A stretch of 64,000 bases of DNA from assembly GCF_019649055.1 (NCBI RefSeq), contig NW_026570275.1, positions 558,001 through 622,000 on the forward strand. Direction: 5' to 3'. Numbering within the stretch: position 1 is the first letter of the stretch; every line of letters starts with the position of its first letter. The stretch is from Paramacrobiotus metropolitanus (lineage: Eukaryota > Tardigrada > Eutardigrada > Parachela > Macrobiotidae). Shown here piece after piece: positions 8,334 to 25,704 of the stretch. The notes below the pieces were generated by a model that worked only from the letters and a program-made list of their open reading frames with translations, ran no database searches and was not told the DNA's origin. Made by a program: the position numbers and the translations under genes.

Positions 8334-8460
8334 AGAGAACAGGCGTCTTCCCAGCCGCCAATTAAAAAGGAAAAAGTTGCGCAGCCGTCGCCGGCAAGCA
8401 GCCCGAGTACCTCGTCTTCGACATCGGTCAGTCTCGTGCCTAATTCCGGCTCCAGTCAAG

Positions 8461-8475: not shown

Positions 8476-8748
8476 ACTCCCTGCAACTTCCGATTCAGAT
8501 TTCGTCGGTGGACGCAGTATTAAAGCAGCATCCTGCAGCAAAATATCTCTACATGGGCGTCATGGAAAAATCAGCGAAGGTTGTTGAATGTCTTAGTATG
8601 GATAATAAACTACTAAATGTCATACCTGTTGAACGCGATCGTAGAGACGTCGATGAAGTCCACGACTATCCGTCTTATATGGCACGCAATCCAGAGTTGA
8701 AAAAGTGGATGACGCCGATGGACAGGCCACAGGATAAACAGTTGTTTC

Positions 8749-9125: not shown

Positions 9126-10499
9126 TCAGTTAATGACCGTCGGCATTTTGAAACGATTAAAAGAAACAAACAGTTACACGCACAGAAAGCTACAGGGAAA
9201 CGTAAAGTCACCTTTTCCGTCGATAATCCAGCCCCGGCAGGAGAATTCGAAAATGGTAGCTTCGTCCCTGCTGATGGAATGAAACCCATTAATATCGGCC
9301 CGTGTCCGGTCTCCTACGAAGATAAACAGGCGGAGAAGCAAAGGGAAATAAATTCTCAAATGATTAGTAACTCACCGCCGCCGAAGCCGTCCGAGTTCGT
9401 TTCACAGAATGTCAGAGCGACCTACGATGTTTCGACAAATGTTAATATTAATGAACAGTGGGAAATCTGGAATGACATTCAGAAACAAAAAGCATTGAGC
9501 GAATCTGAAGCTGTTAATCCAGTACAACCCACTGTAGGAAATTACGAACCATCACCGGAAGGTTCGGGAAGGAGTACTCCCAGGCGTAAAAAATCCAGTT
9601 ACAGCCGCAGAATCCGGCGCGAGTACGCAGAGCGCGAAGCTGCAAGCCAAATGTCGGCCGAAACTGTGCAACCAGTCCCTGTTCAGCAGTTGCCAGTGGC
9701 TAAAAACTTGCCCAAGCGGTCACAGGATGTCCGTGAGTCCACAGATATTCCGGCATGCGTATATTCGAAGGATGTCATCGAACTGGCGTACAGTGACGCC
9801 CATCTGAAACAGGCGCAAGCACAGGTTGAAGTTAATTCGGTAGAACATGATATTTACCGCTTCGAGCCAGAACCCGGTCCGATTGATTGCTTCAAAATGG
9901 AGCTGTTTCCAGCTTCGCCGGTCATAATTCAACCCTACTCGCAGGGAATTATTCGCGCTACGACGTCTATGTCCGATGAGCAATTCATGGAGTTCCAGGA
10001 TGAGTATTTATAATCTCAGCCCTTTCTTTATGAAGGCAAAATTCCTGAATCGAACAAGAATGCAGTACTGTTGGACGGCGTCTTAACGCTTGATGAGTAC
10101 GGTAATTGTAGGGTCTGCGTTGTCAATGTTTCGGATAAACCATTGGTTCTGAACGAGGAAACTAACCTGGGTGAACTTGCGCTCGTCGATGCGGTTTATC
10201 AGATGGACTCTCCGGAGTTCCAGGAGAATTGTCAAGAGGCGATTAGTGACATTCCCAGTAAGGAGGAAGGCATTTCAGTGCCGGGAAAAATTACCGAATG
10301 TGTGGCCATGCAGTTGCCGCCACCCGCCGTCAGTGCTGTTGATCCTGAAACAGAGGAAACTTTCGCAAAAATTAAAGTTGGGGACATTTGTCCAAGTAAG
10401 GATGAATTGAAGGCTATATTTTATCAGGCGAAGACTGTATTGCCGACTAAAGCGCGTCCTGTGGGATGCTGTACCATTTATGAGCACTCCGTGGATACA

Positions 10500-11840
10500 G
10501 GCACCATTTTGCCGGTTAGAACTCCCCCGTATCGTACATCTTTTGAAGATCGAAAATGGCTCCAGGCTAAAACTCAAGAAATGATTAAAGACGGTATCAT
10601 CGAGCCAACAAATTCGGCATGGGGAAGTCCTATTTGCATCGTAAAAAAGAAGGATAAATCCCGGCGTTTAACCGTGGACTTCCGTAAGCTTAATAAAAGA
10701 TTAATGGGCAGTAGTTACCCGCTTCCCAGAGTTGACGATATTCTTAATGCCCTTGACAAAGCAACGGTTTTTAGCAAGATCGATTTAAAAACCGGATTTT
10801 GGCAAATTAAAATAAAACCAGAGGACCGGTGTAAAACAACAATGGTGGGCGAAGAATTCACGTTTCAATACAAAGTCTTACCTTTCGGGATGAAGGACGC
10901 GCCTTCGGCTTTCCAGCGCGCCATGGATTTGACGCTTGCGAACATGAAGTGGAGGAACGTGTTGGTTTTTATTGATGACATTATTGTCTTCAGTAAAAAC
11001 CTGGCAGATCATATGCGGCATTTACAGGAGCTTTTTCTAAGGCTCCAGGAATGCGGCTGGACCATTAATCCTGAAAAAACTGAATTGTTTGTGAACTCGA
11101 TTACCTTTTTGGGTCATACGGTTGATCAATTTGGTATAAGCACGGATCCAGAGAAGATCCAGGCGGTTAAGGAATTCGGCCCTATAAAAGATAAGAAAGA
11201 TATTCTCAGATTCTTGGGCATGGTAGGATATTATCGCCAATTCATTAAGAACTTCCAAGAAATTGCTGAGCCGCTTCAGAAATTAATTCCTAAAAAAGTT
11301 ACCTTCGAGTGGGGAACAGATCAGTGTAGGGCTGTCGAGCAGTTGAAGGAGGCCTTGGTGACGGCGCCGGTCCTGGCCCGTTACGATCCAGAGGCCTTGT
11401 CGAGAGTGGTTGTCGACGCCAGCACTATCGCAGTCGGCGCAGTGCTCATGCAGTGCCCGCGAGATAAGCCGACGGATGTGTCGACGAACTAGAAACCAAT
11501 TGCGTATTTAAGCCGCAAATTGACCGAGACGCGGAAAAGGTTGTACTTCCCAACTGAGCTTGAAGCTTATGCCGTAATTTGCGCCCTAAAAAAGTGGAAG
11601 CATTATTTGTCGGATTATCAGTTTGAAGTCCAGACCGATCATCAGGCTTTGGTTTTCCTAAATAATATGCGCGATGCCGCTGACCGCCTTGGGCGCTGGG
11701 CTTTATACATACAGCAATTCAATACTAAACCGGTACACATTCCCGGCAAAGAGAACGTTATTGCTGACGCGTTAAGCAGAAATCCAGGAGAACAACCGGA
11801 ACCTGACTCTGACGACTCAGACATCGACTTTGACTATCGG
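10500..11840 (+). other. pol: Reverse transcriptase and RNase H domains (copy 1)
   Basis: RT motifs in order: the LTVDFRKLN segment, YPLPRVDDIL, SKIDLKTGFWQI, LPFGMKDAPSAFQRAMD and FIDDIIVFSK, with the catalytic aspartate pair at nt 10974-10979. The connection and RNase H follow, with RVVVDAS and, after the TAG at 11490, TELEAYAVICALKKW and TDHQAL. These are Ty3/gypsy signatures. The TAG falls inside RNase H and the TAA at 10011 falls before RT. As it stands the copy cannot make a full-length Pol without readthrough. Confidence 0.9.
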
Positions 11841-11989
11841 CAAACTTACCCTTTCGCCGGTGATGCCGCGATGATCGAGTGCTGTTTCGCGATCCTGGAA
11901 CGAGACTACGTGGATATCCGTTTCGAGATGATGTCGGCCGAAGTCAAAGCCATTTCTGAAGAAGATATGAAGGCTTTCGATGCAGACAA

Positions 11990-13275
11990 AGTGCAGAAGC
12001 TGATTACTGACGATAAGGCTTCATACTGGGCTGAAGAGCAGTCTCGAGACGTGAGGATTACCCGATGGCGGTTGCTCCTAGAAAATAAAAAGGAAAAGAT
12101 GTCAGACCACGAGAAATTACATTTAAACAAATTTGTGGTGAAACAGGGCGTTGTATACTACAAGTTCGAATTAAACCGGAAGATTTATTATTGCTTGTAC
12201 GTGCCAGTGCACTGGCGGTTACAATTCCTTCAAGATAATCATGACTCACCATTAGCGGCACACTTGGGTGTCTTGGCCACCTACAAGCGAATGTACAAAT
12301 ATTTTTATTGGCCCCGTATGTTTGAGTCTGTTAAAAGTTATTGTGCTTCTTGCCCGGCGTGCCTTGCACAAAATCCTCTCGCTACGGCACCGGCCGGCGC
12401 TCTCCAGTCAAACCCGACCGTTCCTCCTCGGTTAGTTTGGGCAATTGACGTTGCTCCGGGCCTCCCAACGACGGAATCTGGAAACAAAAACATTATTATT
12501 GCAGTTGATTACGGAAGCAAGTATATGGTTGCGGAGGCAGTTGAGAGAAATGACGCTGCAACATTGGCGTTGTTCTTTTATCGTCGTATCCTGACAGTCT
12601 TTGGCATGCCCGTACACATTACCTCAGACCGCGGCAGTAATTTCATGTCTGAAATGTTTCCGGAGCTCCTTGCTCTCGCTGGTGTCGCTCACGCACCGAC
12701 GGCGTCAGGCCACCAGCAGGGCAATGGACTTGTTGAAAAACGCGTAGGGGAAATCAAAAAGGCGCTAGCGAAGTATGTTAATGAACAGCAAAGTGACTGG
12801 GATATATTCCTCCCAGCACTTTGTGCTGCTTTTAACAGCAAAGTTGTGGAGCGAACAGGCCGCACACCATTCTTCATGATGCATGGCACCGAGATGCGCT
12901 TGCCCATAAACAATTTTTTGCCATTTGAAGAAGATTTCGTAATTCCCGCCCATGTATATGTACAGCAGATGCAACGCGGCCTTGGTGAAGCCTTGGATTT
13001 AGTGAATGCAGAAGAGTTTCGGCATAAGCTTAAAGATAAAATTAGATATGATGCCAATATCTCACATGTATCGTATAAACCGGGAGATCAAGTTTTGGTA
13101 TACGTGTTACATCGGAAAGTGGGGAAGAATCCATCCCTTATGCCCCGTTGGACTGCTGGATGGGAAATTGTGCGTCAGTCAGGGCCAGTGCATTATGTAG
13201 TAAAAAGTAATCGGCGTGGAAATGTTAAAACTGACACTGTACATGTCAGCCGTTTAAAGCCGTATAATTTCCGCG
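11990..13275 (+). other. pol: Integrase: HHCC module 2, DDE core, GPY-like C-terminus (copy 1)
   Basis: The HHCC domain (H-x6-H and C-x2-C, nt ~12007-12363) is followed by the catalytic core. The core has WAIDVAPG (first Asp, nt ~12441), TSDRGSNF (second Asp, ~12624) and GLVEKRVG (Glu, ~12732). The C-terminal part has GDQVLVYV, then a GP-x-HYVV stretch and VHVSRLKPY, the usual GPY/F-type ending. I see no chromodomain. After it the polyprotein continues for ~300 residues, which is unusual. Confidence 0.88.
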
Positions 13276-13767
13276 ACGTCGATACTATTCTACAAGACGA
13301 GCATTTACCGAAATTACTCGACTGTGTGGAAAAGGAATGCCCAGATGAATTGGTTGAGGCGCCCGCGCCGCCGCCGGTGATTCCATCCGTTGATTCAGCA
13401 TCGTCGCGCCTTGATGCTGAGTATGCTGAATACCTGGATAACCAGATGGAAACGGTTCCATTGCTTAAAACCCGCTCCGGGCGTGTGGTGAAACCTGTGG
13501 AAAGACTTGTAAACCAGATGAACGACAAAAAGCGTAAAAGAGACCCGTCGGCTGATGCTAAAAAGCGCATGGCCACAAATGATAGAGAACCGGCTGTTCT
13601 GAATGTATCCCAGCCGGGAGGGGGTCAATCCGAACTAGCTGAACCATTGGCCAGTCATACTTCGTCAATTACCTGTAACGCAATGGAGATTGGGCCGGCG
13701 CAGCCCGCAAAAACTCCTTTAGCAGTTGTAGAAGACAGAGTTCTTCCAGCCCCGGCTTGGGCGCGTC

Positions 13768-14189
13768 CGATTGAGCAGTTCTGGCCTCAGGGTGTAATAT
13801 CTGATGATGCCCTGGATAAACAGGAATTCTGGAGGTATCGACAAATGGAGTGTAGTGACATGATGTTGTGGGACGCCGTTGTTGATGGAGACTGCACTCT
13901 GGAGGAATCTGCATACGCGGCCTGGCATCTCCCTCTAGTTCTGAAAGTAAAAGGCATTATCTGCCATTACGGCGAAAGAGAGGATATCCAGAAAAGAATC
14001 CCTAAAATTCTGATCCCGTTTCAATGGCGTAAAATATTAGTTGAATCAGTACACCGTCGGTTACTTCATAAGTATGGCAGTGCCATTTCGCCATATGATT
14101 ACTTGTACAGAAACCTTCGGTTTTTCTGGCCTGAAATGAAGTCTGATTTAGCGAAATTTTGCCGGATCTGTACCTTATGTAATCTGGAT
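13768..14189 (+). other. Third HHCC zinc module at the Pol C-terminus (copy 1)
   Basis: The last ~140 residues repeat the architecture of modules 1 and 2: a D-K-Q-E-F-W helix, I-L-I-P-x-Q-W-R, H-x4-H, RFFWPEM and a final C-x2-C (CTLC), ending three residues later. It is linked to the integrase by a long low-complexity, lysine/proline-rich spacer that includes the sequence KKRKRDP, a plausible nuclear localisation signal. The module is conserved in copy 2. Confidence 0.7.
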
Positions 14190-14192
14190 TAA

Positions 14193-14530
14193 AAGGCCAG
14201 GCGGCCGTGTAAATCTGTACATTTATTTTATTTTTGAATTTTAAGAATTGAAATTTTTACTCTCTACTGCATTAAATTGCCTGGAAAATTCCCAAAATTG
14301 TTTGTACGTACAGATTGACGGTGTGTATTCGCCATTGGACAGTCCGCGATGACGTAGTAGCGTTCGTTGCTCTTTTGCATATCAGCTGCGTAGGGAAGCT
14401 GCTGATAGCTGGCCGCAAATGATATTCATACCGGCAAGATCAGCGTTAGTCGTCAATTCGCTTTCAGCTTCGTCTGAGTTTCCTCTTCTTATACACTGAA
14501 TTTGTGGCTAAATTACTGTATATTGCTGCA
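14193..14530 (+). promoter_or_regulatory. Near-invariant spacer between pol and gene A (copy 1)
   Basis: About 290 bp here differ from copy 2 (40210-40500) at only about one or two positions, while the coding sequence just upstream differs every few codons. It has no open frame. It contains an AT-rich block and a 10-bp palindrome (TGTACGTACA) paired with an upstream inverted TCTGTACA. The likely roles are an accessory-gene promoter, a splice acceptor region or an RNA export/packaging element. The alternative is a recent recombination tract between the subfamilies. Confidence 0.6.
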
Positions 14531-15361
14531 ATGCATCGTCCAAAAGTGCCGTCGCATCCTTCCTTTCAGCATGAGGACACCACAAGTTCCTCAGAAGACT
14601 CGGTACAAGTTGAAGCGGACATCCCGCCGCCAGAGAATCCTGATCCTCACGTCGGATGGCCAGAACCGACATTTGAGTGGTCCCATCGCATGGTGGATTG
14701 TGGCCTTCGTCCGTCTCCGCATGATTATGCTCGTGGAGCGCTGAGCTACATTCCTCCCTCTGGTCTGCAACGTTCTCATTACACTCCAGATGCTGATTTC
14801 GTGGGATTGCACCCGGATACTCGCCTGCGCTTCCGTGCCAAGATTTTTCACAATGGTTCGCAGATGACGGTGGACAAATATAACCGCTTTGTCCACACTC
14901 TGGATCTGTCAAAGGACGCACACTATGCTTTACTTCGTTACCTGCGTGTGGACTTCCGACAAGGATGGCTTATCGGGCAGATTGTCTACGAACTCCGTCG
15001 GAACCACGGCATCAATGTTGTGCGTAATCCAGTAGAGTTTCTCACCGCCTTGAATTATCATCCGGGAGAGACTGGTGATCGTGGAGCCGTCGTCACATTG
15101 GTGGACGTATATAACCAGCATATTACGGATGATGTTTCGATGATTGATGAAGACTTACGACTGGAAGCGGAGCAGCGTTATTATCAGCGCTTGGATGCGG
15201 TGCAGCAACGCCCGTCGGGACAACAACGGCAAGGACTGACACTTCGATGGTCGCTGACGGAAGGACAGGAGAAACGCGGCCCGGGCAAACTGGATGCTTC
15301 GATTGCCAAGCGTCATCGTCCACGCCGCGATGATGACGATGATATGGGCGCTGCTGTTTAG
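14531..15361 (+). CDS. Accessory gene A, unknown function (intact, copy 1)
   Basis: A 276-residue protein starts at the ATG at 14531, chosen because copy 2 has its ATG at the same place (40549) and the upstream codons are not conserved. The N-terminus is serine/acid/proline-rich. The middle (DKYNRFVHTLDLSKDAHYAL) looks like a compact helical fold. The C-terminus has a basic KRHRPRR patch followed by five aspartates, which could act as a nuclear signal. Most differences from copy 2 keep the reading frame and many are synonymous, so it has been under coding selection. No family is recognised. Confidence 0.8.
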   Translation: MHRPKVPSHPSFQHEDTTSSSEDSVQVEADIPPPENPDPHVGWPEPTFEWSHRMVDCGLRPSPHDYARGALSYIPPSGLQRSHYTPDADFVGLHPDTRLRFRAKIFHNGSQMTVDKYNRFVHTLDLSKDAHYALLRYLRVDFRQGWLIGQIVYELRRNHGINVVRNPVEFLTALNYHPGETGDRGAVVTLVDVYNQHITDDVSMIDEDLRLEAEQRYYQRLDAVQQRPSGQQRQGLTLRWSLTEGQEKRGPGKLDASIAKRHRPRRDDDDDMGAAV

Positions 15362-15943
15362 CCGTTTCCCTTCAATACAGCATTTAATAGGCTTTTCACG
15401 TTATTGTGCCCTCTACTTCGCCACTATCTGGTGTTTTTCACGGTTTGAAATGAGTACCCTTTTCTTTCTTTGAGTTTACAAATTCGGTACAGCCTTTTAT
15501 CTGTCAGTTCTACAATTAGCTTCTAGCGTTGCTTTACAATGCACAACTTCTCTATGTCTTGGCTTACCGTTGTCGGCCTTGCACAATATTAAATGGGCGG
15601 TTTGGCAATAAATGGTTGAATGGTGTTTAAATCCGATTGTTTACAATTGCAATTCCCGGGAAATCCAAGCAAAACAGTACAGCTAAACAAAAAAGGTGTA
15701 AATATCATTGCGTTCTGGAAAAAAATGCAAAGTCTTCACGTTTGAACATGTAAACAATTATGTCACTGTATCAACCGCCCGCATGTAGTCAGATGTTAGG
15801 GCAGTCGCAGTTTGAGTGCACACAGCTGTTTCTGGTCTGCACAGCTGCAGTGTGTCAGTCGTTTCATGTTCAGAATTTCAGCTTTATCTTTTCACCTCAT
15901 TCATAGCCTCTCTGGTTTAAACTCTTCACCTTTTTTTTTAAAA
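15362..15943 (+). other. Spacer between genes A and B (copy 1)
   Basis: No gene is visible. Near its 3' end is a block shared with copy 2 around 'TCAACCGCC' and 'AGATGTTAGGGCAGT' (about 15770-15800 here, 41799-41833 there). A TCAACCGCC word also precedes gene F. This may be a promoter element for the accessory genes; that is an inference. Confidence 0.35.
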
Positions 15944-16731
15944 ATGGAGATGGAATTTTATAAATCCGAGCGCGGACGTATGATTTGTGCTGAGCAAGAT
16001 GAGAAGAAGCGCCGTAAGTTCGTCAGATTTTCTGATTCTGTTGCGTATGTTCTGGCGAACCAGGAACACATTTCCGAGTTTGTGTACTTTTGGCGTTCTT
16101 TGGACGGCCCGTATATTTCCATTTCGGAGCTTTGTAAACTCTCTAATTCCGAAATTATGGCCTTGAATTTTACAGAACCCGAGCCATTGGATTTTGAGGC
16201 TCAGGTGGCTTTAGAGATCGAGAAAGTTCGTGCGTCGGAAATGCAGATGTATTACTTGAAGATCGGTTTTATTCTGTATCCCGACACTCCTGTCCTACGT
16301 GAAGCATCTGAACGGCTTCGGAAGGAATTTGGCTTGCCATCCTTATTCAACCTGCCGGAAACTCCGCGTGAGCGTCATCAGCGCATGGTGGAACACAACA
16401 AGCGAGTGATGGAAGAAGAGCTTTGTTGTGTGGAGTGTGAGAATAATGGCCAAGGCTCGTGTGGTCGGATGCTGTATACTTTGGACGATGAGCCTATTCT
16501 AAGCTGTGGGGATCTGGCAATCTCGAGGACTGGAAAGAGCCAGACTTAGATTTGGATGACTGGTGGGCAGAGCACAAGCTGGATTTTAAGGATCCGATTG
16601 AATTTTTGCCTGTGGACATGCTGTGGATGGATGAAGACTTCGGCACTGATCAGAAACCGAAGAAGAAGCGCAAGCACATCGTAGTGCAGCGCCATGTTCT
16701 CCGTGGCATTCCCCACACCTACTGGAAGTGA
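15944..16731 (+). pseudogene. Accessory gene B, nuclear zinc-cluster protein, frameshifted (copy 1)
   Basis: From the ATG at 15944 the frame is open to 16549, but about 1 nt is missing near 16500 relative to copy 2. The conserved C-terminal third (WGSGNLEDW to HTYWK, ending with TGA at 16729) is therefore out of frame. A cysteine cluster C-C-x2-C-x7-C lies at about nt 16423-16461. The out-of-frame tail contains PKKKRK, the classical SV40-type nuclear localisation sequence. The intact protein would be ~262 residues. A small nuclear regulator of Tat/Rev type is a guess. The N-terminal half is badly damaged in copy 2. Confidence 0.65.
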
Positions 16732-17380
16732 GGACTTTTGTTGATCGGCCGTTTGTGTGTTTAAATTACAGCTCGATGATTTAAATTGTATGGGCCTTTT
16801 TCTTTAAAATCTCTCGCTGTTTCCTGCCCTTTATGTGTGTTTTGAGGACGCTGAGCGCAACATGCCTAATCATGTATAATTTTATAGCTGCTGCCTTTTA
16901 GCATTTAAAATGAGTGTTGTTTTGCTCTCCTCCCACCCAGTTGTGATCGAGCCTACAGTTATGGCTCTGTTTTCCATGAATTTTGTACTGATGGAATGAT
17001 CCGTAATTTCATAGGCTTTAAGTATTTTGTAAAAAGGAATTAAAAGCCTGTGGAAGTTAGGATCTTGCGTGTTGAAAGCGGTAAATTGTCGAGCGTATAT
17101 TCGTTTAATATACACACTCTAGTGAAATTGCTGACGGTGCTAAGAAGTGTTCTTGCAATATACACGCTCTGCCGTAGGCCGTGTGTTAGTGGACTTCGCT
17201 GGTTACGAAGTATGCGGTCGCCAGCGGGGGCGGCTGTCAACTCCTATCCTGAATGTATCCCAGTGTAAAATTTTCGTAAAAATTTAAATTATATTATTCC
17301 CTTTCACTGATACGCCTGATACCGTGGGATAAACTCTTGTTTTGTTTTGTTTATTCCATTGTCGCAGTTTTTGTATCAGC
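16732..17380 (+). other. Spacer between genes B and C (copy 1)
   Basis: No convincing gene. A block around 17190-17265 ('GGACTTCGCTGG' to 'CTGAATGTATCCCAG') is conserved in copy 2 (43250-43330). The last 40 nt are T-rich and end in CAG just before the gene C start, compatible with a splice acceptor. Confidence 0.4.
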
Positions 17381-17563
17381 ATGACGCCCCCAGCCTCTGA
17401 AAAGAAGAAAGCGGCCAAGCAGGCGCTGGAAACCCGTGTGACGGCGTGGACGGAAATAGTGGCTCAGAAGATGGCCGAACGCACTGAAGCTCAGCAACGT
17501 TTTGAGCGTGGCAGAATCGCTGTCAAGGAGGCAGTGTCTAAGCTTCCCCCGAAGACTCCTTGA
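17381..17563 (+). CDS. Accessory gene C, 60-residue helical basic protein (copy 1)
   Basis: The protein begins MTPPASEKKKAAK and ends KLPPKTP. Copy 2 encodes the same length with only a handful of changes. It is rich in A, K, E and R and predicted to be one long amphipathic helix, with W near the centre. The stop TGA (17561-17563) overlaps the ATG of gene D (TGATG); in copy 2 the overlap is TAATG. Conservation of length and of the overlap supports a real coupled pair. Function unknown. Confidence 0.75.
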   Translation: MTPPASEKKKAAKQALETRVTAWTEIVAQKMAERTEAQQRFERGRIAVKEAVSKLPPKTP

Positions 17564-17826
17564 TGTCGCATCATTGGGTGGATTTATGCAGGCTGATTTT
17601 GCCCACTATTGTTAGAATGTCTGGTATTCTGTGCGAAATGCTTGAAACCGTGCTTCACTCGTATGATCTCCTTCGCCTTCATCCTTTTATTCGTACGCTC
17701 ATGTCTCTGCTGAGATCTCATATTGTAGATTTAGTGTATCGTTTTATCTTGTATTTTTATTGTTTTACGGTTAGTTTTCTCCTTTATTCAGATTGTGTTT
17801 TGCCACACGGGTTGTACACTCTTTAG
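17563..17826 (+). CDS. Accessory gene D, small hydrophobic protein (copy 1)
   Basis: The ATG at 17563 sits inside the stop of gene C. The 87-residue product is strongly hydrophobic, with leucine/isoleucine-rich segments that could form one or two membrane helices (around residues 10-25 and 50-75). Copy 2 encodes a 120-residue version, and the first ~45 residues are well conserved with several synonymous changes. The C-termini differ in frame or length. A small membrane protein is the best guess, and translation is probably by termination-reinitiation. Confidence 0.6.
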   Translation: MSHHWVDLCRLILPTIVRMSGILCEMLETVLHSYDLLRLHPFIRTLMSLLRSHIVDLVYRFILYFYCFTVSFLLYSDCVLPHGLYTL

Positions 17827-17900
17827 CTGGTACATTATGGTTTTGCGTTTCGTCCCGCAAGGCGTTCTTGTTGTGTAGTTACTGTGCGAGTTGCGAGTTC

Positions 17901-17906
17901 AATAAA
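17901..17906 (+). terminator. Poly(A) signal after genes C/D (copy 1)
   Basis: AATAAA lies 75 nt after the gene D stop and just before the tRNA-like array. It is conserved at 43974-43979 in copy 2. It would end subgenomic sense transcripts while full-length genomic RNA must read through it. Confidence 0.5.
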
Positions 17907-18108
17907 GTCTAAGTAGTCACCGTCTGTGCTGTTGTTGGTAAATGCTGAACAGCGTAGCGCACGACCGCTCGAGACTACACTTCCGTTACGATGTTGCGTT
18001 GCTCTGCAAGTAGCTGGTCATTTGGGCGGGTAGGCCACAGGCGCATCCGCTATTAATCGTTGCTAATGTACGCCTTTGGCGCTCCCGTTAAAGAGGGTTT
18101 TGCGTAGA

Positions 18109-18209
18109 GCGACCCCGCTAGTATAGTAGTGGCTTCCGTTGCTTCGTCATTGGAGGTCGGAGGTTCTAGTCTACATAAAAACGCGATTTTGTAAATGTCT
18201 TTCCTTTTT
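18109..18209 (+). ncRNA. tRNA-like unit 1 (copy 1)
   Basis: A box TAGTATAGTAG at 18119-18129, B box GGTTCTAGTCT at 18162-18172, T5 stop at 18205. A stretch of 93 nt (18098-18190) is identical to copy 2 (44171-44263), although its surroundings have diverged. The sequences GTAGA and TCTAC at its edges can pair. Confidence 0.65.
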
Positions 18210-18335
18210 GGTTTTTATTTCATGAATCGCTATATTTTTATTTGTGGACTTAATATGGGGAATATTGGGTGAATCGCTGTTGAGAGGTGTCAAATGAACA
18301 CTGCAAGCTGTGTTATTAGTATTATTTTTATCGAT

Positions 18336-18455
18336 GACTCTTGTAGTCGAGTGGTCCAGTAAAGTGGCCAATACCAGGCGAATCCGTTTACCTGTTGCTG
18401 GTCCTGGGTTCCAATCCCCAAAAATCAAAAAGCGTTTTCATAAAACCTTCTTTTT
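18336..18455 (+). ncRNA. tRNA-like unit 2 (copy 1)
   Basis: A box TAGTCGAGTGG at 18344-18354, B box GGTTCCAATCC at 18407-18417, T5 stop at 18451. The interior is less conserved in copy 2 than in the other units. Confidence 0.6.
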
Positions 18456-18584
18456 CGTGTCCAAATTTTTGCATTTGGTTGTACTTACACAGTCGGTGTG
18501 ATACCGTTAATTTCTTATTGGTTTTCAACGAGCGGCGCACACTTGCACAGCCTTTACCGTTCAGATTTTGTTCTTTTACCGTGA

Positions 18585-18697
18585 GACGTCGTAGTGTAGT
18601 GGTTGTCCGCCTTATCTCCGTGACTACTCGGTCAATCTCGGGCCTTGGGTTCAAAACCCTTACAAGTATTGCACATTTCTTTAAACCTTCCTTTTTT
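18585..18697 (+). ncRNA. tRNA-like unit 3 (copy 1)
   Basis: A box TAGTGTAGTGG (perfect consensus) at 18592-18602, B box GGTTCAAAACC at 18648-18658, T6 stop at 18692. The body is nearly identical in copy 2, where the B box is GGTTCGAAACC. Confidence 0.7.
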
Positions 18698-18797
18698 GGA
18701 TTTTACCTTGTTATAATGACATCGAATATTCATTGCTGTTGACGTTGCTACTTTAACGATCGTTTCTGATGAGCGAATTCAAAAGTTACTGTCGTAG

Positions 18798-18910
18798 AAC
18801 AGCGTAGTATAGTGCTTTGCACCGTTGAACTACAGCAACGGGGAAATGAAACGGTTGCGGGTTCAAGTCCCTTACAGCTAATTTGCAATTTTGAGAAACT
18901 TACTTTTTTT
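18798..18910 (+). ncRNA. tRNA-like unit 4 (copy 1)
   Basis: A box TAGTATAGTGC at 18805-18815, B box GGTTCAAGTCC at 18860-18870, T7 stop at 18904. Between the boxes is a 6-bp hairpin, CCGTTG and CAACGG around an 8-nt loop (18822-18841), at the place of an anticodon arm. The loop is one base too long for a tRNA and lacks the usual T at position 33. Confidence 0.68.
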
Positions 18911-19057
18911 CGTTTTATATTTTTGTTTTCGTCTTTGGAAAAGTATTGACAGTAGTTCCCAGAATATTAGAATTAAACTCAAAGAGCTGGGCGTAAAATT
19001 GTATGCACACTCAATGGTTGACATTGCACTTGGCCGTCTCTTCGTCTGTATTCGAAT

Positions 19058-19162
19058 GACTTTGTAGTTCAGTGGCTATGAATGATGGCCTCATGTACTA
19101 CCTCCTTAACGGCCGGTCTTAATCTCAGGGTTGCATGCTGCATCTTTACGAACTACATTTTT
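19058..19162 (+). ncRNA. tRNA-like unit 5 (copy 1)
   Basis: A good A box TAGTTCAGTGG at 19065-19075. The B box is degenerate (GGTTGCATGCT at 19129-19139), in the same way in copy 2. T5 stop at 19158. Confidence 0.5.
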
Positions 19163-19285
19163 CTGCCCTATATTTTTGTACCCTTGTGGGATGAAGAGTT
19201 AATCGTTTGGTGCCTTATTGCGTCAGGTTAAATATACACGACATGGCGCTTCCGGTGTTGAACCCAACTCGGTTTTAACGTAGAG

Positions 19286-19391
19286 CACCTTGTGGCGTAG
19301 TGGCTAGACTGAGAATCCATACCGACCCGCTTCTCGCAAGTCTAGAGTTCGAATCCCTAAAGTTAATTCGTTTAATTTAAAACCATCTTTT
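19286..19391 (+). ncRNA. tRNA-like unit 6 (copy 1)
   Basis: A box TGGCGTAGTGG at 19293-19303, B box AGTTCGAATCC at 19346-19356, T4 stop at 19388. The T-arm TAGAG/CCCTA pairs with one mismatch. Confidence 0.65.
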
Positions 19392-19492
19392 CGGTTTTAT
19401 ATTTTTGTATCAATATGCAGCATTTTGTTGGATTCGAGGTTGTTAATTTTACGGCCACTCCCGACGAGCGAAGTTAAAGTTTAACTCCGCAG

Positions 19493-19605
19493 ATTGTAGT
19501 GGCGTAGTGCACTGAACTGTTGAACCACAACAACAGGTGCAATGAGGGTTGCGGGTTCGAGTCCCCTACAATTAATATGCATTTTCTGAAACCTTATTTT
19601 TTTTT
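19493..19605 (+). ncRNA. tRNA-like unit 7, with acceptor-like stem (copy 1)
   Basis: A box TGGCGTAGTGC at 19500-19510, B box GGTTCGAGTCC at 19554-19564, T9 stop at 19597. A perfect 7-bp stem, ATTGTAG (19493-19499) with CTACAAT (19566-19572), closes the unit just as a tRNA acceptor stem would. A 6-bp hairpin (CTGTTG/CAACAG, 8-nt loop) sits at the anticodon position. The T-arm is reduced to about three pairs. In copy 2 the acceptor-like pairing is lost. Confidence 0.7.
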
Positions 19606-19775
19606 GGTTTTTTGTATTTATTACTGTTATTGTGAAAATATTGCCGCTGCCGGAATGAATTTTATGGTCACGGTGACGATGGAATAATAAAGTCCATTTG
19701 CGGCCATGGTTGTGAATTCCCGTCGTAGCGTGAACTTTCGTAGTACAGCGCCTCCGGTGATTGCCAAACTAAAAG

Positions 19776-19901
19776 CATAATGTAGTATAGTTATGCTAGC
19801 GTATGGGCAAGAGCAGGATTTAGTTGTCCACCTAGATGCAAGGTTCAATCCTGCGTGAATACAAATTTTGCAAGTGTTAAGAGTTTCTCTCCATTCTTTT
19901 T
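19776..19901 (+). ncRNA. tRNA-like unit 8 (copy 1)
   Basis: A box TAGTATAGTTA at 19783-19793, B box GGTTCAATCCT at 19842-19852, T5 stop at 19897. GCAGGATT and AATCCTGC form a perfect 8-bp stem that spans the B box. The interior and 3' part are almost identical in copy 2, over about 85 nt. Confidence 0.65.
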
Positions 19902-20314
19902 ACTTTTCTTTGGTGATTTCTGTAACTTTATTCCCCTGATAGAATATTAGAATTGTTTTTAGCACTTCATTCACGGTTGCGGGTGCGATATTTGATTTTA
20001 AGCTGTTGATTTCTCACTCTGCACTGGAATGCACTATAGTTACGATTGCGCATATTGTTACACCGAGTTTATTGCGGTAATTCAAATGCTACATAAGTCC
20101 AAAATTAATCTCGAATTAAGATCTGTCCGACCAGCAAAATTAATGACTATATGAGAATCGGTACGGAATTATGAGAATTACCTGTTAAAAAGCATCGATG
20201 AGATTAGTTCAACGAGATTAAAAGATTAAACGGAAGAAACAAAAGTCGGCTGAATTTCAGAGCACAACTATCAGACAATCGCGGGAAACACAATGCGTAT
20301 TACAACACCGCCGT
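19902..20314. other. Interval between the tRNA-like array and gene E (copy 1)
   Basis: No gene is visible. This is probably the 3' untranslated region of the antisense gene E. A minus-strand AATAAA (TTTATT at 20068-20073) is retained in copy 2 at 46100-46105. Confidence 0.4.
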
Positions 20315-21718
20315 TTAGTCTAAATCCAGATTATCCTTGGCGATTTTCAAGTTATTCAGACGCTGCTCCAGCGCCTCACGGATATACGCGATGTGTTTGG
20401 CGTCCATTGTCGCTCGTGCCTTCAGCGTGTTTACCAGCGCTTTGCAGTTTTCCATAATGTCTTTTTCGCGCTCAACCTGCTGCAGTAACTTATCGATAGC
20501 ATCCGGTTCAGCAGCGCTCACTTCAGCGCCAGGTCGTTCAGCCTTCTCCTTCATCTTCTGGCTTTTCTTCTCGGTATCCGTATTTTTCGATCGGGGAACG
20601 TATTTAGGACGGCCGCCCGTGGCTTTCAGCTGAGTGAGAATGATTATTGGCTCTCTTTCAATTCGCCCGTCCTTGCTGGCCCGAATCACCAAATTCTTGT
20701 TAGTTGTGTTGTTCTTTGATGGCTCAATCGCGTCCAGACGTTCCATGACGCCGTCAACGACTAAGTCAACATCCTCTCCCACGAAACCAAAACTGCAGTC
20801 CGTCACATGTTGCTCGATTTCCCTTCCGTTGATTACGACTTTCATAGTGCCCATCTTCATATCTATAAATAATTGTAATTATTACTGTGCTCGTGCATCA
20901 AATACAAGCATAGATGTTCAAACAAAAGGATAAATTATCGCATGTTTACTATCAAATCTAGCCATAAAATTGCCGACGATTGCTCACGTAAATGTGTAAA
21001 TACAACTGCTTCGAAATACATAGAAACACTCACTGATTGTCTGTGCCAGAGTGTTGCAAAGGCAGCATCCCCGGATGCTCCGCAGCCACAGGTCAATGCA
21101 ACTGTCGACAAATAAATTCCCATAGACCACGACAACGTGCTTGTCTTTGACCAATCGGCGCAAGCCCCGTTCGAGCCAGTAATCGCGATCCTCGAGCAGT
21201 ACGTCGTAAGTGCAGGCCCAATGTTGGATTTCGGCCCGTGACATTGCATAGCGGCCATGATACAGGATAGCACGAACCATCCGGCGAAATTTTCCATATG
21301 TGTCGATCACCTTCACTTCGGGATCGCGACTCTTGTGCACTTCTTCGGCCACTTCGAGCACAAAGCGTCCGTCGCGAGACATCTTCTTCAGTAGGATTCC
21401 GGCGTTGATCGCATCGCCGAGGAAGAAGTCCACCCGGTCAGCGGTGAAGTCGTCATGCATGTCGATGACAAACTGTTTGACGGAAGCCATATCCACGTAA
21501 AAACCACAAATATCTGCTTCCAAAATGCAAGCATGGGCTGCGGTATGCATCGCCAATTGTCGACTGCTTTGCGTGGTTTCCTTCGCCATCAAAGGCTCCG
21601 CCATGGCAAACTGGATCGATTCGCGAGTTCGCTCCTTCCAGTATCGAGCATGCTCAATTGCATCCGTCTCGGGCGATGGTAGTGGCTCTCCAGCTGGTCC
21701 TACAGGCTGCGCTGACAT
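20315..21718 (-). CDS. Antisense accessory gene E, two exons (intact, copy 1)
   Basis: Exon 1 is 21718-21034, exon 2 is 20862-20315, and the intron of 171 nt is 21033-20863. The donor reads A|GTGAGT, the acceptor TATAG|AT, and the frame is kept across the junction (an Asn codon). The predicted protein has 410 residues. Exon 1 encodes a globular helical region (AMHTAAHACIL, DDFTADRVDFFLGDA). Exon 2 encodes a short beta-rich segment, a lysine-rich linker and a C-terminal coiled coil ending NLDLD. Copy 2 keeps the same donor and a matching acceptor with the same phase. The gene is transcribed against gag-pol, as HBZ is in HTLV-1 or the antisense gene is in the Grande retrotransposon. No family is recognised. 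Confidence 0.78.
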
Positions 21719-22323
21719 GATGATTCCGAAAAATAACGAATTAAAAATGTAACAGAAAGGAAAGCAATGTAGTAATAACAGAAACAGTAACCCGTCACCG
21801 CAAAAAGGATAAAATTGATATTGTTGGGTTCTTCACTTCCACTTTTTAATGATGAACAGCTGATATTCTCTGTGCTGATGAACCGGCATTCTGTCGTGTG
21901 TCAGCCGCCCTGTTAAGGCAATGCTATCGGAAACTGTGTGGTTTCCGGTCTGTGTTCCGAATATTTCCCAGCCGCGTGTTTTGGCTCTAGCTTTCCTGTT
22001 TCGAGTTCCTCTGGTCACCATCGTAGGTGTCGTGTATTAAAATCTGGTCTTTGAGGTCGTATTTTGTAAAATCTCGGCGAAGCAATTGGTATTCGGTGTG
22101 ATTTAAGGTAAAAATCAAAGTGCGCACAGATTTTCAAAAATCCACTTGTCGCCTGTCAACCGCCTGATGGTGCACTCCGTGAATTTTGAGTTTTCGGTGT
22201 CGGTGCCAGTGCAGATCATCTGTTGTGCTTTTTCTCTGCACTCCAGTTTTTCAATGTTCCAAATTTGCTGGCATTGATAGTATCCTGTTTTTCCCTATCT
22301 TTCATCATTTTTACATTTTGAGA
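21719..22323. promoter_or_regulatory. Divergent promoter interval between genes E and F (copy 1)
   Basis: The starts of antisense gene E and sense gene F face away from each other across this interval, so it probably holds promoters for both. It contains a 7-bp inverted repeat CGGAAAC..GTTTCCG around 21929-21948, conserved in copy 2 with a changed loop. The word TCAACCGCC near 22157, also found before gene B, is present too. No TATA box stands out. Confidence 0.5.
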
Positions 22324-23498
22324 ATGTCGCCGCCTGCTAAGAAGCCAACCGCGCGCAAGGCTGCTTCGCGTACACCGCGCCCGAGTCGTGCTACAGCGGG
22401 GCTGAACTTTGGTTATTCTCCGGACAGCGATGAAGCCCGTTCTTCATCGCGTGTCACTCGGTCTCGAGTCTCTCGTCGTACTGCTGCCCAGCCAGTGTTT
22501 TCTGCGCAATCTTCTGGGTCATCTGGATCGGTGAGTGCAGTGGTGGCTCAGCAACCTTCAACGAGTTGGGCAGATGCAGTAGTGAATGCTTTACAGCGTC
22601 GATATGATAAACAACGACGACGCACAATTCTGCGACGCAATGCAGCTGTGGTTCGCCGCCGTGCCCGTCGGGGATCATTTCCTACCAGCCCTGACGTTGA
22701 GATTCGTCAGCCATCCCCGAAGAAACTGCAGACGCAGGCAGAGAGACAGCTAGGCACTCCGGATCTTACAGAAGAGGAGCCCTCGTCTTCTGAAACTCCA
22801 TCTGTGCGAGCAAAGCGAGGTATTTCCACAATACCCTGTTGTTTTGGTCCTCTTACTTTAATGATAATCATAGTATTCATTTTTGCTTACTTCTGCTTGC
22901 ATTTATCAGCCTAAATTTCCAATTGTCTTGTTGTGAGTCTGTTTGGTGTGCCTACCTCCATTAACGGATATTTGGTCTGTGTGTTCTCGTTGCATATCCG
23001 TGATACAGTTTACCGGGGATAATTCTTTGCCTCGCCGGTGTTAATTGTTGCCTCTTGTTTATATCAGATGAAGAGCATCTGCGTAAAGGCGGAATTTTAT
23101 ACGCGCCCTACAACCCGGATGCACCACGGCCGGTCTTCAAGACTAAGCAGACGGCTCGCAAACGAGCACATTCCGGAGTTTTTCCAAGAATGGCTGTTGC
23201 GGATAAGCGTGGTGAGCTCGTCGTTACTGAAGCTTATTTTACTGGACTGAATAGATTCCACCGTTATTACCCACGCCTCTATTTATCGCGATTTTTGTTT
23301 GTCAATGGAAACCTCATTAATCGTTTTGATTTATGTGTATTAACCCGGACGCTTCCTACTTCTATTGCACTTGAATTGCGTGGTCAGTATATGTATCTCA
23401 ATCCAGTCTTTGTCCGTTTGTTTGAAGAATTGGGGACACGACAGAAGGCGGATGCAGTTGCGCGCCAAGCGGTTGCTGATGCTGGTGCCGTGGTATAA
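22324..23498 (+). CDS. Accessory gene F, spliced Arg-rich protein, 3'-truncated (copy 1)
   Basis: Exon 1 is 22324-22819 and exon 2 is 23068-23498. The 248-nt intron begins GTATTT and ends ATATCAG, and the junction makes GAT (Asp). Exon 1 is exactly 496 nt in both copies. It encodes a serine/proline-rich start, a dense arginine motif (RRYDKQRRRTILRR and RRRARR) and an acidic end. Exon 2 encodes a conserved domain (EEHLRKGGILY, PRPVFKTKQTARKRA, RFHRYYPRLYLSRFLF). The copy 2 product continues ~160 residues further; here a deletion replaces that part, leaving ADAGAVV and a stop. If unspliced, exon 1 would run to 22914 and end in a ~22-residue hydrophobic helix. An RNA-binding regulator is plausible from the arginine motif. 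Confidence 0.75.
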
Positions 23499-23522
23499 AA
23501 TCGGTATAAATAGGTATAAAAT
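23492..23522 (+). promoter_or_regulatory. Triple TATA-like cluster before gene G (copy 1)
   Basis: GGTATAAA occurs three times in about 30 bp, ending the truncated gene F and starting the gene G upstream region. Copy 2 has a single GGTATATAAG at about 50320-50330 in the same position, about 150 bp before gene G. This suggests an internal Pol II promoter for gene G. Confidence 0.55.
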
Positions 23523-23673
23523 CGCCTGCGCGTAGTGTGCAGAATTTGGCATTGTGGATTTTTCGTTTTGGCCTTCTGGCATGCTGGATTTTCACTGTGT
23601 GTAGACTGTGATTTTGACGCTTTTTTCTTTGCACTTCTAGCGTTTAAGGTCACTAGTTTTCTTTAGTTTGGGC

Positions 23674-24480
23674 ATGCCGCCTATTGATCCTAACCGAGCT
23701 TTCGACAAGCTGGTTGACGCTATTTTTCATTCATCCTCCAACCAGCAACAACAGTATACTGCCGGTTATAATCACCGAGGAAGGGGTGGAGCCCGTGGTG
23801 CTTACCGTGGCAACTTTCGTCCGTACGGCCGAGGAAATCATAGGAACTTTGGAGACAATGACTTGCGTCGTGGAAACGATCATTGGCGTCGTAATGGCCG
23901 ACCTCTGGGCGCACCGGAAGTTATTGAAGTACCTGATGGAGTTGATCACCCAGTTGCTCCAGTGGAAGCTGCCGCCGCAAACATGGAGGTTGATGACCCG
24001 GGCAACCAAGCAGCGAATGCACTGAATCCGGTCCAAGGCAACGGAAATGTGGCTGCAGGTGAGCCCAATGGTGTCAACCCTGCTGTCAATCTACATGGCC
24101 CGCCAGCCTTGAACGCTGTTGCTGCTATTCCCCCGGCTGCAATTCCTATCCAGCACCAGCATGTTCAGCAGCAGCAGAACGCCGAGTTTCCGGGTTTGCC
24201 ACCAAATGTGTTGCCACTCGCTGAAGTGCCGATTGTCCGCGATGCCCGCGACCGCTCCCCGGCTGATCGTCCACGTGCGCCGTCTGCGCCTTCCGGTCCC
24301 GTTGGTTCAGCTGAGCATAATTTCGTACCTGGTTATTTGGCCCAGCAGCAGCAACGTGAATTGGATGCTGATCGCCGACGTCAGATGGCCGCTGACGTTT
24401 CTCGCCGTTTGGATGCCGCTGCAGCGTCTGGCTCTGGTATTACTGGTCTCTTTTCATTGGCTCCCAGTGCTGGCAAGTAA
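23674..24480 (+). CDS. Accessory gene G, RGG-rich protein (intact, copy 1)
   Basis: The protein has 268 residues from the ATG at 23674; copy 2 has the same start context (50480). After a short helix (PIDPNRAFDKLVDAIFHSSS) comes a Q-run and an RGG/RG-rich region (RGRGGARGAYRGNFRPYGRG), typical of RNA binding. A long proline/alanine/asparagine-rich segment and a conserved C-terminus (AADVSRRLDAA.. to APSAGK) follow. Most differences between copies are silent or in the low-complexity part. It is the last gene before the 3' LTR. A nucleocapsid-like or RNA-chaperone role is an inference. Confidence 0.75.
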   Translation: MPPIDPNRAFDKLVDAIFHSSSNQQQQYTAGYNHRGRGGARGAYRGNFRPYGRGNHRNFGDNDLRRGNDHWRRNGRPLGAPEVIEVPDGVDHPVAPVEAAAANMEVDDPGNQAANALNPVQGNGNVAAGEPNGVNPAVNLHGPPALNAVAAIPPAAIPIQHQHVQQQQNAEFPGLPPNVLPLAEVPIVRDARDRSPADRPRAPSAPSGPVGSAEHNFVPGYLAQQQQRELDADRRRQMAADVSRRLDAAAASGSGITGLFSLAPSAGK

Positions 24481-25124
24481 CCTTGACTCACCTCTGACAG
24501 TGACCTTGTTTGCTTTCTTTGATCTCGTATTGTTACTGGCTTTGTTGCATTGCCTTGACTTTTGATTTTGTTGTCTTTTACTGGTTTACATTATTGTATC
24601 AGTGTGCTGGTAGATTGCACTCACCATTTTGATACGCTTATTTGCAGCTTGTTTGTTGTTGTTGACATTTGTTGCTATACGATGTGATTTGTAGTACTCG
24701 AGAATTCGTAAGAATAATACTGGTTGGTTCATCTGGTCTTTCCGTTCGTTTAAGGCGTGGTGCTACCGAATTACACATCATTCATGATTACACTTCAACA
24801 TTCTCAATCTCATAGTTAATAAAGCTTTATGCCGTATACTGCACATACACACCACCGTCCCAACTCAAACGGCACAGTATCAGTAGTTCATAGTTCGCCT
24901 TCCTGGATCCTTGGACCTCCGCCCTGCCAACCCGTGGACTTCCGGATGCCTTTTCGCCAAGGATTTCACACACTAACTCTCTCGGAATCGCGGCGTACAG
25001 TCACATTGGGCATCGGATGGACATGTGGATTGTGCGGTGGATCGGGATCAGGATGGATGGAAGTGCACAAATCGCACTGGGATGTTGCGGGATGGATTGT
25101 TTATTTTGGCACGGCCAAGCATCG
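24481..25124 (+). other. 3' untranslated region before the 3' LTR (copy 1)
   Basis: No coding gene. A T-rich first half is followed by AATAAA at 24818-24823. A block of ~230 bp (24895-25124) is well conserved in copy 2 (51685-51913). The short open frames over this block are not supported by conserved codon patterns. Confidence 0.5.
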
Positions 25125-25134
25125 TTCGTGGGGG
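25125..25134 (+). promoter_or_regulatory. 3' polypurine tract (copy 1)
   Basis: TTCGTGGGGG directly precedes the TGACG start of the 3' LTR. It is short for a PPT and only its last six bases are purines except for the T. The identical ten bases precede the 3' LTR of copy 2 (51914-51923), and exact copies lie inside pol. Confidence 0.65.
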
Positions 25135-25704
25135 TGACGTATGGGAGTAGGATCATACGCCGGATGTACGTACGGATGCTGACTGTCCGCCTTCCACCTG
25201 CAACACAACGGATAATCTAGTCAATCAATGCTGTGATTTGCTGTTCTCTTTTACTAGCGATGTATATGATGTCATAACGCGAAGTCTATATAAGTTTCTG
25301 TCGCCACTAATATCGGGATTAGTAGTCTGAGATTTACTTCTGAGACTGCTTCTAATTACAATTTCATAGTGTTGTGAACTGTGATGTGAATTGGATAAAG
25401 AGACAGCAATACTTGTTCCTTCTGATGTACATGATCGTTCCCGGATTATTGCATAGAATACAGGTTTGCTCGTGACACAATCGTCCTAGCTCTTGCCGAT
25501 CCTCACAGGACTTACGACCGGAGATTGTAGTTGGACTTTCGTTAGGGATTCCTGACTCGTGTTCCTGAATCGTTCGTCAGTTCTCCACCATAGTTCTTCT
25601 GTTACAGTTTGAGAGTACGAGTGCCTACCGACTGACATTTACAGGCGTGGAAGAGTAAAGATTGTTCATGGAGCCTTAACCGGCGTGAACGCTTATACAC
25701 GACA
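25135..25704 (+). repeat. 3' LTR of copy 1
   Basis: A 570-bp LTR, differing from the 5' LTR at about two positions by eye (for example GGGATT for GGGATC, and CTGACA for CTGAGA). This indicates a recent insertion. It is followed by AATCAG. Confidence 0.93.

Follow-up and report, generated by a model that had tools for sequence, protein, structure and literature searches.

An array of eight compact units at positions 18098 to 19905 of the window, the whole 64,000-nucleotide stretch of Paramacrobiotus metropolitanus DNA that we analysed, is probably a battery of eight independent type-2 Pol III genes that would make noncoding RNAs of ~85 to 125 nt. The units have been kept through the evolution of the LTR retrotransposon that carries them, yet they do not encode tRNAs, so the element likely produces a small-RNA set of its own, as the initial annotation had proposed. 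The geometry, terminators and conservation of the units can be read directly from the sequence, as can their lack of tRNA and primer identity; we infer Pol III transcription, the existence of the unit RNAs and any function that they may have.

The carrier element

The carrier is a Ty3/gypsy LTR retrotransposon, with a pair of LTRs, a primer-binding site (PBS) and the domain order reverse transcriptase (RT), RNase H (RH), integrase (IN). The window holds two full-length plus-strand copies, both of which contain the array. Element A (2243 to 25704; 23.5 kb) has LTRs at 2243 to 2812 and 25135 to 25704 that are 99.6% identical and end in TG...CA. Element B (28250 to 52498; 24.2 kb), where the same domains were found, is bounded by LTRs at 28250 to 28824 and 51924 to 52498 with 99.1% identity and by a 4-bp target site duplication, GGGG. 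The gag-pol of both copies is interrupted by in-frame stops, and their protease matches (27.6 and 27.9 bits) fall just below the Pfam cut-off of 28.2. Of the 400 proteins that match the RT of the element, the 120 listed reach at most 44% identity to it.

The array occupies a gap between two convergent blocks of genes, namely the plus-strand genes on one side and the minus-strand ORFs at 20318 to 21832 on the other. Just upstream of the array, an AATAAA on the plus strand (17901 to 17906) is a candidate poly(A) signal for the plus-strand block. Its conservation is 0.97 to 1.0 against a line average of 0.85, and its assignment is tentative because further AATAAA motifs occur at 15607, 19686, 21111 and 24818. 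On the minus strand, antisense ORF 1 (20318 to 20878; 187 aa) converges on the array and is followed by antisense ORF 2 (20987 to 21718; 244 aa from the first ATG); neither has a Pfam match that reaches the cut-off. ORF 1 is an orphan protein of the lineage. A search of 5.8 billion proteins gave 112 candidates, none of them at E ≤ 0.001; this genome contains 64 matches, some loci being split into several, of which 50 are without internal stops.

Architecture of the units

To delimit units we required an A box like GTRGYNNAGNGG and a B box like GGTTCRANNCC, the textbook B-box consensus, with at most 3 mismatches together and 40 to 66 nt apart; the A-box pattern was adapted after the units had been seen. 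Seven of the eight units in the window pass this rule, and all lie on the plus strand. Unit 1 (18104 to 18210) has its A box at 18118, its B box 44 nt on at 18162 and a run of five T near 18205. In Unit 2 (18329 to 18455) the boxes at 18343 and 18407 are 64 nt apart, a distance that is 55 to 56 nt in some copies, and five T follow at 18451. Unit 3 (18577 to 18697) combines boxes at 18591 and 18648 (57 nt) with six T at 18692, while Unit 4 (18790 to 18910) has boxes at 18804 and 18860 (56 nt). A host tRNA-Trp gene has 15 nt of its T arm in common with Unit 4. Unit 5 (19050 to 19162), whose window copy is the one that fails the rule, has a perfect A box at 19064, a degenerate B box near 19118 and five T at 19158. 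Unit 6 (19278 to 19391) has boxes at 19292 and 19346 (54 nt) and four T at 19388; Unit 7 (19485 to 19606) has boxes at 19499 and 19554 (55 nt) and a long T run from 19597. Finally, Unit 8 (19782 to 19901) has boxes at 19796 and 19842 (46 nt) and five T at 19897; a second A-like box lies at 19782. Over the units generally, the boxes are 43 to 66 nt apart, mostly 44 to 57 nt.

With the exception of the degenerate B box of Unit 5, this agrees with the eight units of A box, B box and T run that were first described. Their reported spacing of 207 to 283 nt was close to the 207 to 297 nt that we obtain with our anchors. As claimed, Unit 1 shares an uninterrupted match of exactly 93 nt with the corresponding unit of the second element (117 of 123 aligned bases agree). 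Near-identity was also claimed for Units 3 and 8, and it is accurate for Unit 8 (119 of 124 bases, with an exact run of 82 nt) but generous for Unit 3 (125 of 136 bases, longest exact run 39).

The same architecture recurs across the genome. We counted 370 box pairs in 60 loci, with at least 5 units in 54 of them, compared to 1 pair on the reverse strand and 0.00 to 0.20 per locus in dinucleotide-shuffled sequence (20 shuffles each). By this rule, most relatives of the element carry 5 to 8 units. Furthermore, when 20 loci were chosen by the neighbouring ORF 1 and not by the array, 15 had at least 5 units, and in 14 of those 15 the ORF is 56 to 72% identical to that of the window. Three loci (L092, L095 and L096, with 0, 1 and 1 units) have no recognisable array in the 3.2 kb beside their ORF relative.

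The terminators are also well placed. TTTT occurs inside only 10 of the 370 units, compared to 66% of 1844 non-unit windows of 75 nt. Downstream, the first TTTT lies 24 to 44 nt and the first TTTTT 42 to 55 nt after the start of the B box (5 to 95% range). Since the first TTTT is often found at 24 to 29 nt, ahead of the better placed TTTTT, the 3' end of the transcript is uncertain. Upstream, a CGTAGA-like segment (at most 1 mismatch) is present at −22 to −3 of the A box in 214 of 370 units but in 83 of 1682 spacer windows. Ordered A and B boxes on one strand, with a T run after them and none inside, are the features by which type-2 Pol III genes would be recognised. Together with the conservation described below, the box pairs and terminators support the earlier suggestion that a retroelement contains units built like type-2 Pol III genes.

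We propose that TFIIIC would bind the A and B boxes and that Pol III would then transcribe each unit into a primary transcript of ~85 to 125 nt with a short U tail, its length being set by which T run stops the polymerase. Each unit would act independently, none driving the next, and the RNAs would be made independently of the LTR promoter. The promoters belong to the tRNA-gene type, but the predicted transcripts lack the tRNA fold.

Conservation and the possibility of a chromatin barrier

It had been recognised at the outset that a conservation level equal to that of the spacers, or boxes that are not conserved in other copies, would refute the reading as small-RNA genes. Neither was observed. 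Over 40 copies, including both from the window, conservation is 0.946 in units and 0.886 in spacers, ranging from 0.899 in Unit 2, the lowest, through 0.954 in Unit 5 to 0.990 in Unit 8, the highest. A difference of this size was attained by 10 of 2093 circular shifts, the five best of which displaced the units by 3 to 7 nt. Even in diverged subfamilies the boxes are ~85% identical. Specifically, for six unit types, identity to those subfamilies is 0.86 in the A box, 0.84 in the B box, 0.75 in the T-rich segment, 0.72 after the B box, 0.70 between the boxes and 0.62 to 0.63 in the flanks. Units also keep their individuality: six unit clusters bring together units of close loci and units of diverged ones. 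Unit 7 groups with Unit 4.

Given that tDNA insulators are established, an argument can be made that the array is a TFIIIC/Pol III barrier. Such a tDNA-like insulator would lie between the plus-strand block of gag-pol and accessory ORFs and the convergent minus-strand ORFs, where it would stop Pol II collision or read-through and hold chromatin open, with any RNAs as by-products. The location of the array is what this explanation would predict, multiple units would suit it, and boxes are better conserved than bodies between subfamilies. Nevertheless, among close copies the interbox region is constrained (0.919 against 0.80 to 0.82 in the flanks) beyond the needs of a binding array. Terminators are also better placed than such an array requires, and the identity of unit types is retained across subfamilies. 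On balance we regard a barrier as unlikely, while giving it more weight than the other alternatives below.

Under the preferred reading of independent small-RNA genes, selection keeps the boxes, the terminators and, less strictly, the RNA bodies, and the products are therefore most likely trans-acting noncoding RNAs. They would sooner bind a host RNA-binding protein, a mechanism proposed for TMERs and EBERs, than act through base-pairing. A trans-acting role is weakly grounded, because no convincing RNA structure emerged and no target was found within the element. A further point against this reading is that, between diverged subfamilies, the body (0.70) exceeds the flanks (0.62) by a modest margin, and much of the signal could be due to promoter function alone. 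For antisense action on the element itself, the longest exact matches were 10 to 12 nt, within the range of shuffled sequence, and we rejected this candidate.

The units are not tRNAs or primers and match no Rfam family

The units had been called tRNA-like, a description that suits their promoter boxes but not their identity or fold. ARAGORN predicted 0 tRNAs in the whole window, and Rfam models identified no tRNA in nine array stretches (17900 to 20100 and eight further loci). In the canonical register, 0.5 to 3.4 of 7 acceptor pairs form, depending on unit type, and T stems have 2.9 to 3.9 of 5 pairs; 16 host tRNAs (of 30 loci) give 7.0 and 5.0, respectively. The best of seven registers raises the acceptor count to 1.4 to 5.6, compared to 2.4 to 5.1 in one random-partner control, and is slightly above that control in Unit 8 (4.69 versus 3.39), Unit 4 (4.18 versus 3.52), Unit 6 (4.26 versus 3.72) and Unit 7 (5.56 versus 5.08). 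With no cloverleaf and with stem pairing far below that of host tRNAs, we reject the units as tRNA genes.

Nor do they match described Rfam families. No Rfam family reached its gathering cut-off in the whole window, which excludes a match to vault RNA or any other described Rfam family at that level. At E ≤ 5, the stretch from 17900 to 20100 returned only CrcZ (E 0.33) and sR60 (E 4.5), chance-level matches far below their cut-offs, and the eight further loci had no match at E ≤ 1. A role as primer-like RNAs, also raised initially, is contradicted by the PBS. The 13 nt of this site (2813 to 2825, plus strand) match host tRNA-Lys(CTT) at its 3' end, CCA included, and not the 3' end of a unit, so we rejected a self-encoded primer of reverse transcription.

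Another alternative, likewise suggested at the start, is that Pol III transcribes the units into microRNA precursors, in the manner of BLV or of the hairpins within MHV68 TMERs. A retroelement with compact Pol III units in tandem resembles BLV, and Unit 3 folds somewhat better than shuffles. When RNAalifold was applied to seven unit types, with 100 column shuffles of each alignment, Unit 3 was the only one beyond −2 (z = −2.34). Units 4, 6 and 8 were slightly better than shuffles (−1.59, −1.63 and −1.43), but Units 1, 2 and 7 were not (+0.16, +1.65 and +0.09). Over these seven types, then, consensus folds are not clearly better than shuffled alignments, and we found no conserved stable hairpin of the BLV type. 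Predicted structures also differ among units (one fold, from 9 to 29 representatives per cluster and without a control), and no Rfam family reaches its cut-off. We consider microRNA precursors highly improbable.

An internal copy of the U5-PBS junction

A copy of the end of U5 and the start of the PBS lies inside the element at 19233 to 19257 (plus strand), 59 nt upstream of the A box of Unit 6. It matches at 17 of 17 bases, compared to a maximum of 14 in 60 Markov-shuffled internal regions, and its conservation is 0.995 against 0.888 in its flanks. With at most 4 mismatches, it is present in 38 of 40 close loci (36 of them exact) and in 17 of 20 other loci.

The copy bears on whether the array is a relic without a selected function of its own, that is, decayed tandem Pol III-promoter elements that landed in the giant element. 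These could have been SINEs or TRIMp3/Helenus-like LTR elements with their parent's U5 and PBS. Consistent with such a source, the copy stands 59 to 62 nt before the A boxes of Unit 6 and, in some subfamilies, Unit 8; in addition, an LTR element whose promoter is tRNA-like has been described in Helenus, and tandem arrays of a single family are on record (PMC10886601). However, before the other units the motif is at background (Units 2, 3, 4 and 7) or at most a trace (Unit 1). Conservation above the spacers, maintenance of boxes and terminators and persistence across subfamilies also argue against present neutrality. Small Pol III-promoter elements are an attractive origin for the array, but as an account of its present state the relic explanation has very little probability. 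We rejected SINE-like dispersal: when Units 1 and 8 were searched alone, all scored places (40 of 55 and of 43 candidates) were at element loci.

A bolder and rather unlikely proposal is that this animal LTR retroelement has a self-encoded, eight-gene Pol III noncoding-RNA battery, whereas such clusters are known from herpesviruses and retroviruses, and that the battery works with the near-invariant internal copy, which is set at a fixed distance upstream of one unit. The copy may then serve, in a genome of ~24 kb, as a second and central site for primer binding or for recognition by integrase.

Relation to known systems

The nearest kinds of system are the gammaherpesvirus TMERs, the BLV Pol III microRNAs and the Helenus and Cassandra elements. 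Like the array, the TMERs of MHV68 and WMHV are described as a cluster of eight tRNA-type genes with type-2 Pol III promoters; it is carried by a mobile genome and relatives have conserved it well (PMC2888160, PMC8223928). They differ in being carried by a herpesvirus and not a retroelement, and in having a tRNA-like 5' part followed by hairpins that are processed to microRNAs, neither of which is supported in the array units. BLV, as reported, is a retroelement with several independent compact type-2 genes (PMC4267658), but its cluster has five hairpins with the terminator between the A and B boxes, while in the array the T run comes after the B box and a conserved hairpin is not supported.

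Among LTR retrotransposons, the TRIMp3 elements Helenus, Ajax and Cassandra are described with Pol III promoters derived from tRNA or 5S genes, and in Helenus the boxes are conserved even though a functional tRNA is unlikely (PMC10886601). These elements are non-autonomous and reach ~1.3 kb, and the promoter in each of their LTRs is presumed to produce the element RNA. Here, in contrast, the array is internal to a ~24-kb, pol-bearing element with RT, RH and IN domains, and each unit is followed by a terminator; it does not belong to TRIMp3. Burro and Ogre, likened by description only, are gypsy-like elements of very great length that have additional coding capacity, and the main text of the review covering them has no word beginning with "tRNA" or "Pol III" (PMC6431247). 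Within the open-licence literature, we found no description of an internal Pol III array in any pol-bearing LTR element. Vault RNAs, EBERs and VA RNAs are non-tRNA products of type-2 Pol III genes. The array differs in having eight different units in one retroelement, none with an Rfam match at cut-off.

Some viruses (MHV68, BLV and foamy viruses) are known to have clusters of independent Pol III small-RNA genes. In the described LTR retrotransposons that we found, Pol III promoters lie in the LTR and are presumed to produce the RNA of the element itself. For annotators there is a caution, that 370 tRNA-type box pairs in 60 loci mark units without a tRNA fold. For experimentalists, there are tens of natural copies to compare, and the animal is reportedly easy to keep in culture. 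An internal array of noncoding-RNA genes that is kept across subfamilies of an animal Ty3/gypsy element would imply that noncoding-RNA programmes evolve in retrotransposons too.

Results

A single box-pair rule, applied throughout and requiring an A box and a B box 40 to 66 nt apart with at most three mismatches together, yielded 370 pairs in 60 array loci, compared to 1 pair on the reverse strand over the same 60 loci and 0.00 to 0.20 per locus in shuffled sequences. Forty of these loci (L009-L048, the close loci) were chosen by similarity to the array and include the two window copies, L009 and L034. The other 20 (L079-L098, the ORF-picked loci) were chosen among the matches of antisense ORF 1 and had no overlap with places from the array-similarity search. 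At least five pairs were found in 54 of the 60 loci, including 15 of the ORF-picked loci. Those below five were L047 (3 pairs; 1002 bases long, at a contig end) and, among the ORF-picked loci, L081 (3, contig end), L097 (239 bases only), L092 (0), L095 (1), and L096 (1). Single-linkage clustering of the units produced 12 clusters, six of them large (48 to 98 members each); units 4 and 7 fall together in one large cluster, and every one of the six includes members from ORF-picked loci.

Conservation is higher in the units than outside them. Over 40 copies it was 0.946 in units versus 0.886 in non-units, a difference matched by only 10 of 2,093 circular shifts, the five best being shifts of 3 to 7. 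By region, values were 0.974 for the A box, 0.958 for the B box, 0.946 between boxes, and 0.931 after the B box, with upstream and downstream flanks at 0.888 and 0.887. When close loci were compared with diverged ones (60 random pairs per unit type; L081 and L098 excluded from the diverged set), on six of seven unit types because unit 7 has no diverged member, identity was highest at the A box (0.86) and B box (0.84), intermediate in the T-rich stretch (0.75), after the B box (0.72), and between boxes (0.70), and lowest outside the units (0.62 to 0.63). Such a profile would be expected of Pol III genes whose products are under moderate constraint.

TTTT was internal to 10 of 370 units versus 66% of 1,844 spacer windows, and the median distance from the B box was 29 nt to the first TTTT (24 to 44; 5 to 95%) and 44 nt to the first TTTTT (42 to 55; 5 to 95%). 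Furthermore, 214 of the 370 units carried a CGTAGA-like segment ahead of the A box, while such a segment occurred in 83 of 1,682 spacer windows. Arithmetic from box, start, and T-run distances gives predicted transcripts of about 85 to 125 nt.

In the window, the array is carried by each of two full-length LTR elements. Element A spans 2243-25704, with LTRs of 99.6% identity and no clean 4-bp target site duplication seen at its ends; element B spans 28250-52498, with LTRs of 99.1% identity and the target site duplication GGGG. Both show the Ty3/gypsy domain order (reverse transcriptase, RNase H, integrase) within a giant gag-pol frame, together with a protease match slightly under the Pfam cut-off and in-frame stops. 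This single frame of roughly 3,400 to 3,500 codons (3576-14192 and 29974-40209) is broken at differing places in each copy, and contains an extra, weak H2C2 zinc-binding match, below cut-off, between protease and reverse transcriptase. Five further plus-strand stop-to-stop ORFs (14450-15361, 15800-16549, 22183-22914, 23004-23498, and 23641-24480) had no Pfam match at or above cut-off; the last contains an RG-rich stretch. An inverted repeat with arms of about 180 bp, 79% identical, lies a short way beyond element B (52856-53373). Across the 169.8-Mb assembly (533 contigs), the 21-base U5-PBS pattern, which spans the U5 end and the primer binding site (PBS), occurred 110 times with at most two mismatches versus 0 for the reversed control pattern. 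A cytochrome b copy, translated with the invertebrate mitochondrial code, had tardigrades among the closest named matches by identity (Pseudobiotus 69%, Hypsibius 69%, and Ramazzottius 68%) within the 120 listed of 8,000 matches; by E value a beetle record at 51% identity ranked first, and several environmental proteins without names reached 70 to 74%. Separately, the cytochrome b in a 214-kb contig (L103, C170:81450-82650) reflects either a misassembly or insertion of mitochondrial DNA into the nuclear genome.

At 19233-19257, 59 nt upstream of the unit 6 A box, the element also contains an internal duplicate of its U5 end and PBS start. This copy matched at 17 of 17 bases versus a maximum of 14 in 60 Markov-shuffled internals, and is near-invariant (0.995, versus 0.888 in the flanks). 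With at most four mismatches it occurred in all close loci except L047 and L048 (38 of 40, with 36 exact copies); among the ORF-picked loci 17 of 20 had it, L092, L096, and L097 lacking it. The next detected A box lay 59 nt away in 36 of the 38 close loci, the exceptions being L014 (50 nt) and L031 (269 nt; unit 6 undetected there), and mostly 59 to 62 nt away in ORF-picked loci; the copy precedes unit 6 or, in some subfamilies, unit 8. Its PBS part differs from the full tRNA-Lys(CTT) complement and, by sequence comparison, resembles the complement of the host tRNA-Lys(TTT) 3' end minus one base. It may serve as a second PBS or be recognized by integrase, it may act as an upstream promoter element, or it may be a scar of origin.

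Discussion

Several identities for the units were considered and rejected. That they are tRNAs was rejected by tRNA-gene search, Rfam, and cloverleaf pairing; acceptor-position pairing was slightly above the random-partner control in four unit types. No convincing conserved hairpin was found in the units, though unit 3 does reach a z of -2.34. A role as reverse-transcription primer was rejected as well, the 13-nt PBS match being host tRNA-Lys(CTT) with CCA, and so, to the extent that units 1 and 8 are informative, were dispersed SINEs. The clearest host likeness is in the T arm; unit 4, for example, shares 15 nt with a host tRNA-Trp gene. Antisense matches of the units to the element did not go beyond the shuffled range.

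The best-supported chain of events begins with a type-2 Pol III promoter in each unit, as box geometry and conservation suggest. Given the terminators, each promoter would yield a short, U-tailed RNA, which may then act with a putative partner, a guess guided by TMERs and EBERs (PMC8223928). The main rival is that the array serves as a barrier, an explanation that is compatible with the small-RNA chain and can coexist with it. On one side of the array, at 17901, is an AATAAA that is conserved on the plus strand; on the other, minus-strand ORFs (20318-21832) read towards the array. The AATAAA is tentatively a candidate poly(A) signal, since the motif is not rare in this stretch (five on the plus strand of 14201-25700). 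Antisense ORF 1 (20318-20878, minus strand) is an orphan without homologues at an E value of ≤0.001 in a large protein search; within this genome it gave 64 matches, of which 50 have no internal stops. Antisense ORF 2 (20987-21718, minus strand) lies within the LTR element. That ORF 1 is maintained suggests that the neighborhood of the array is also under selection.

Part of the design of the array, not all of it, is common to TMERs, to the BLV microRNAs, and to the TRIMp3 elements (Helenus, Ajax, and Cassandra), and the whole design is found in none of these known systems. We class the array, with its predicted small RNAs, among element-encoded Pol III RNA clusters, as a variant.
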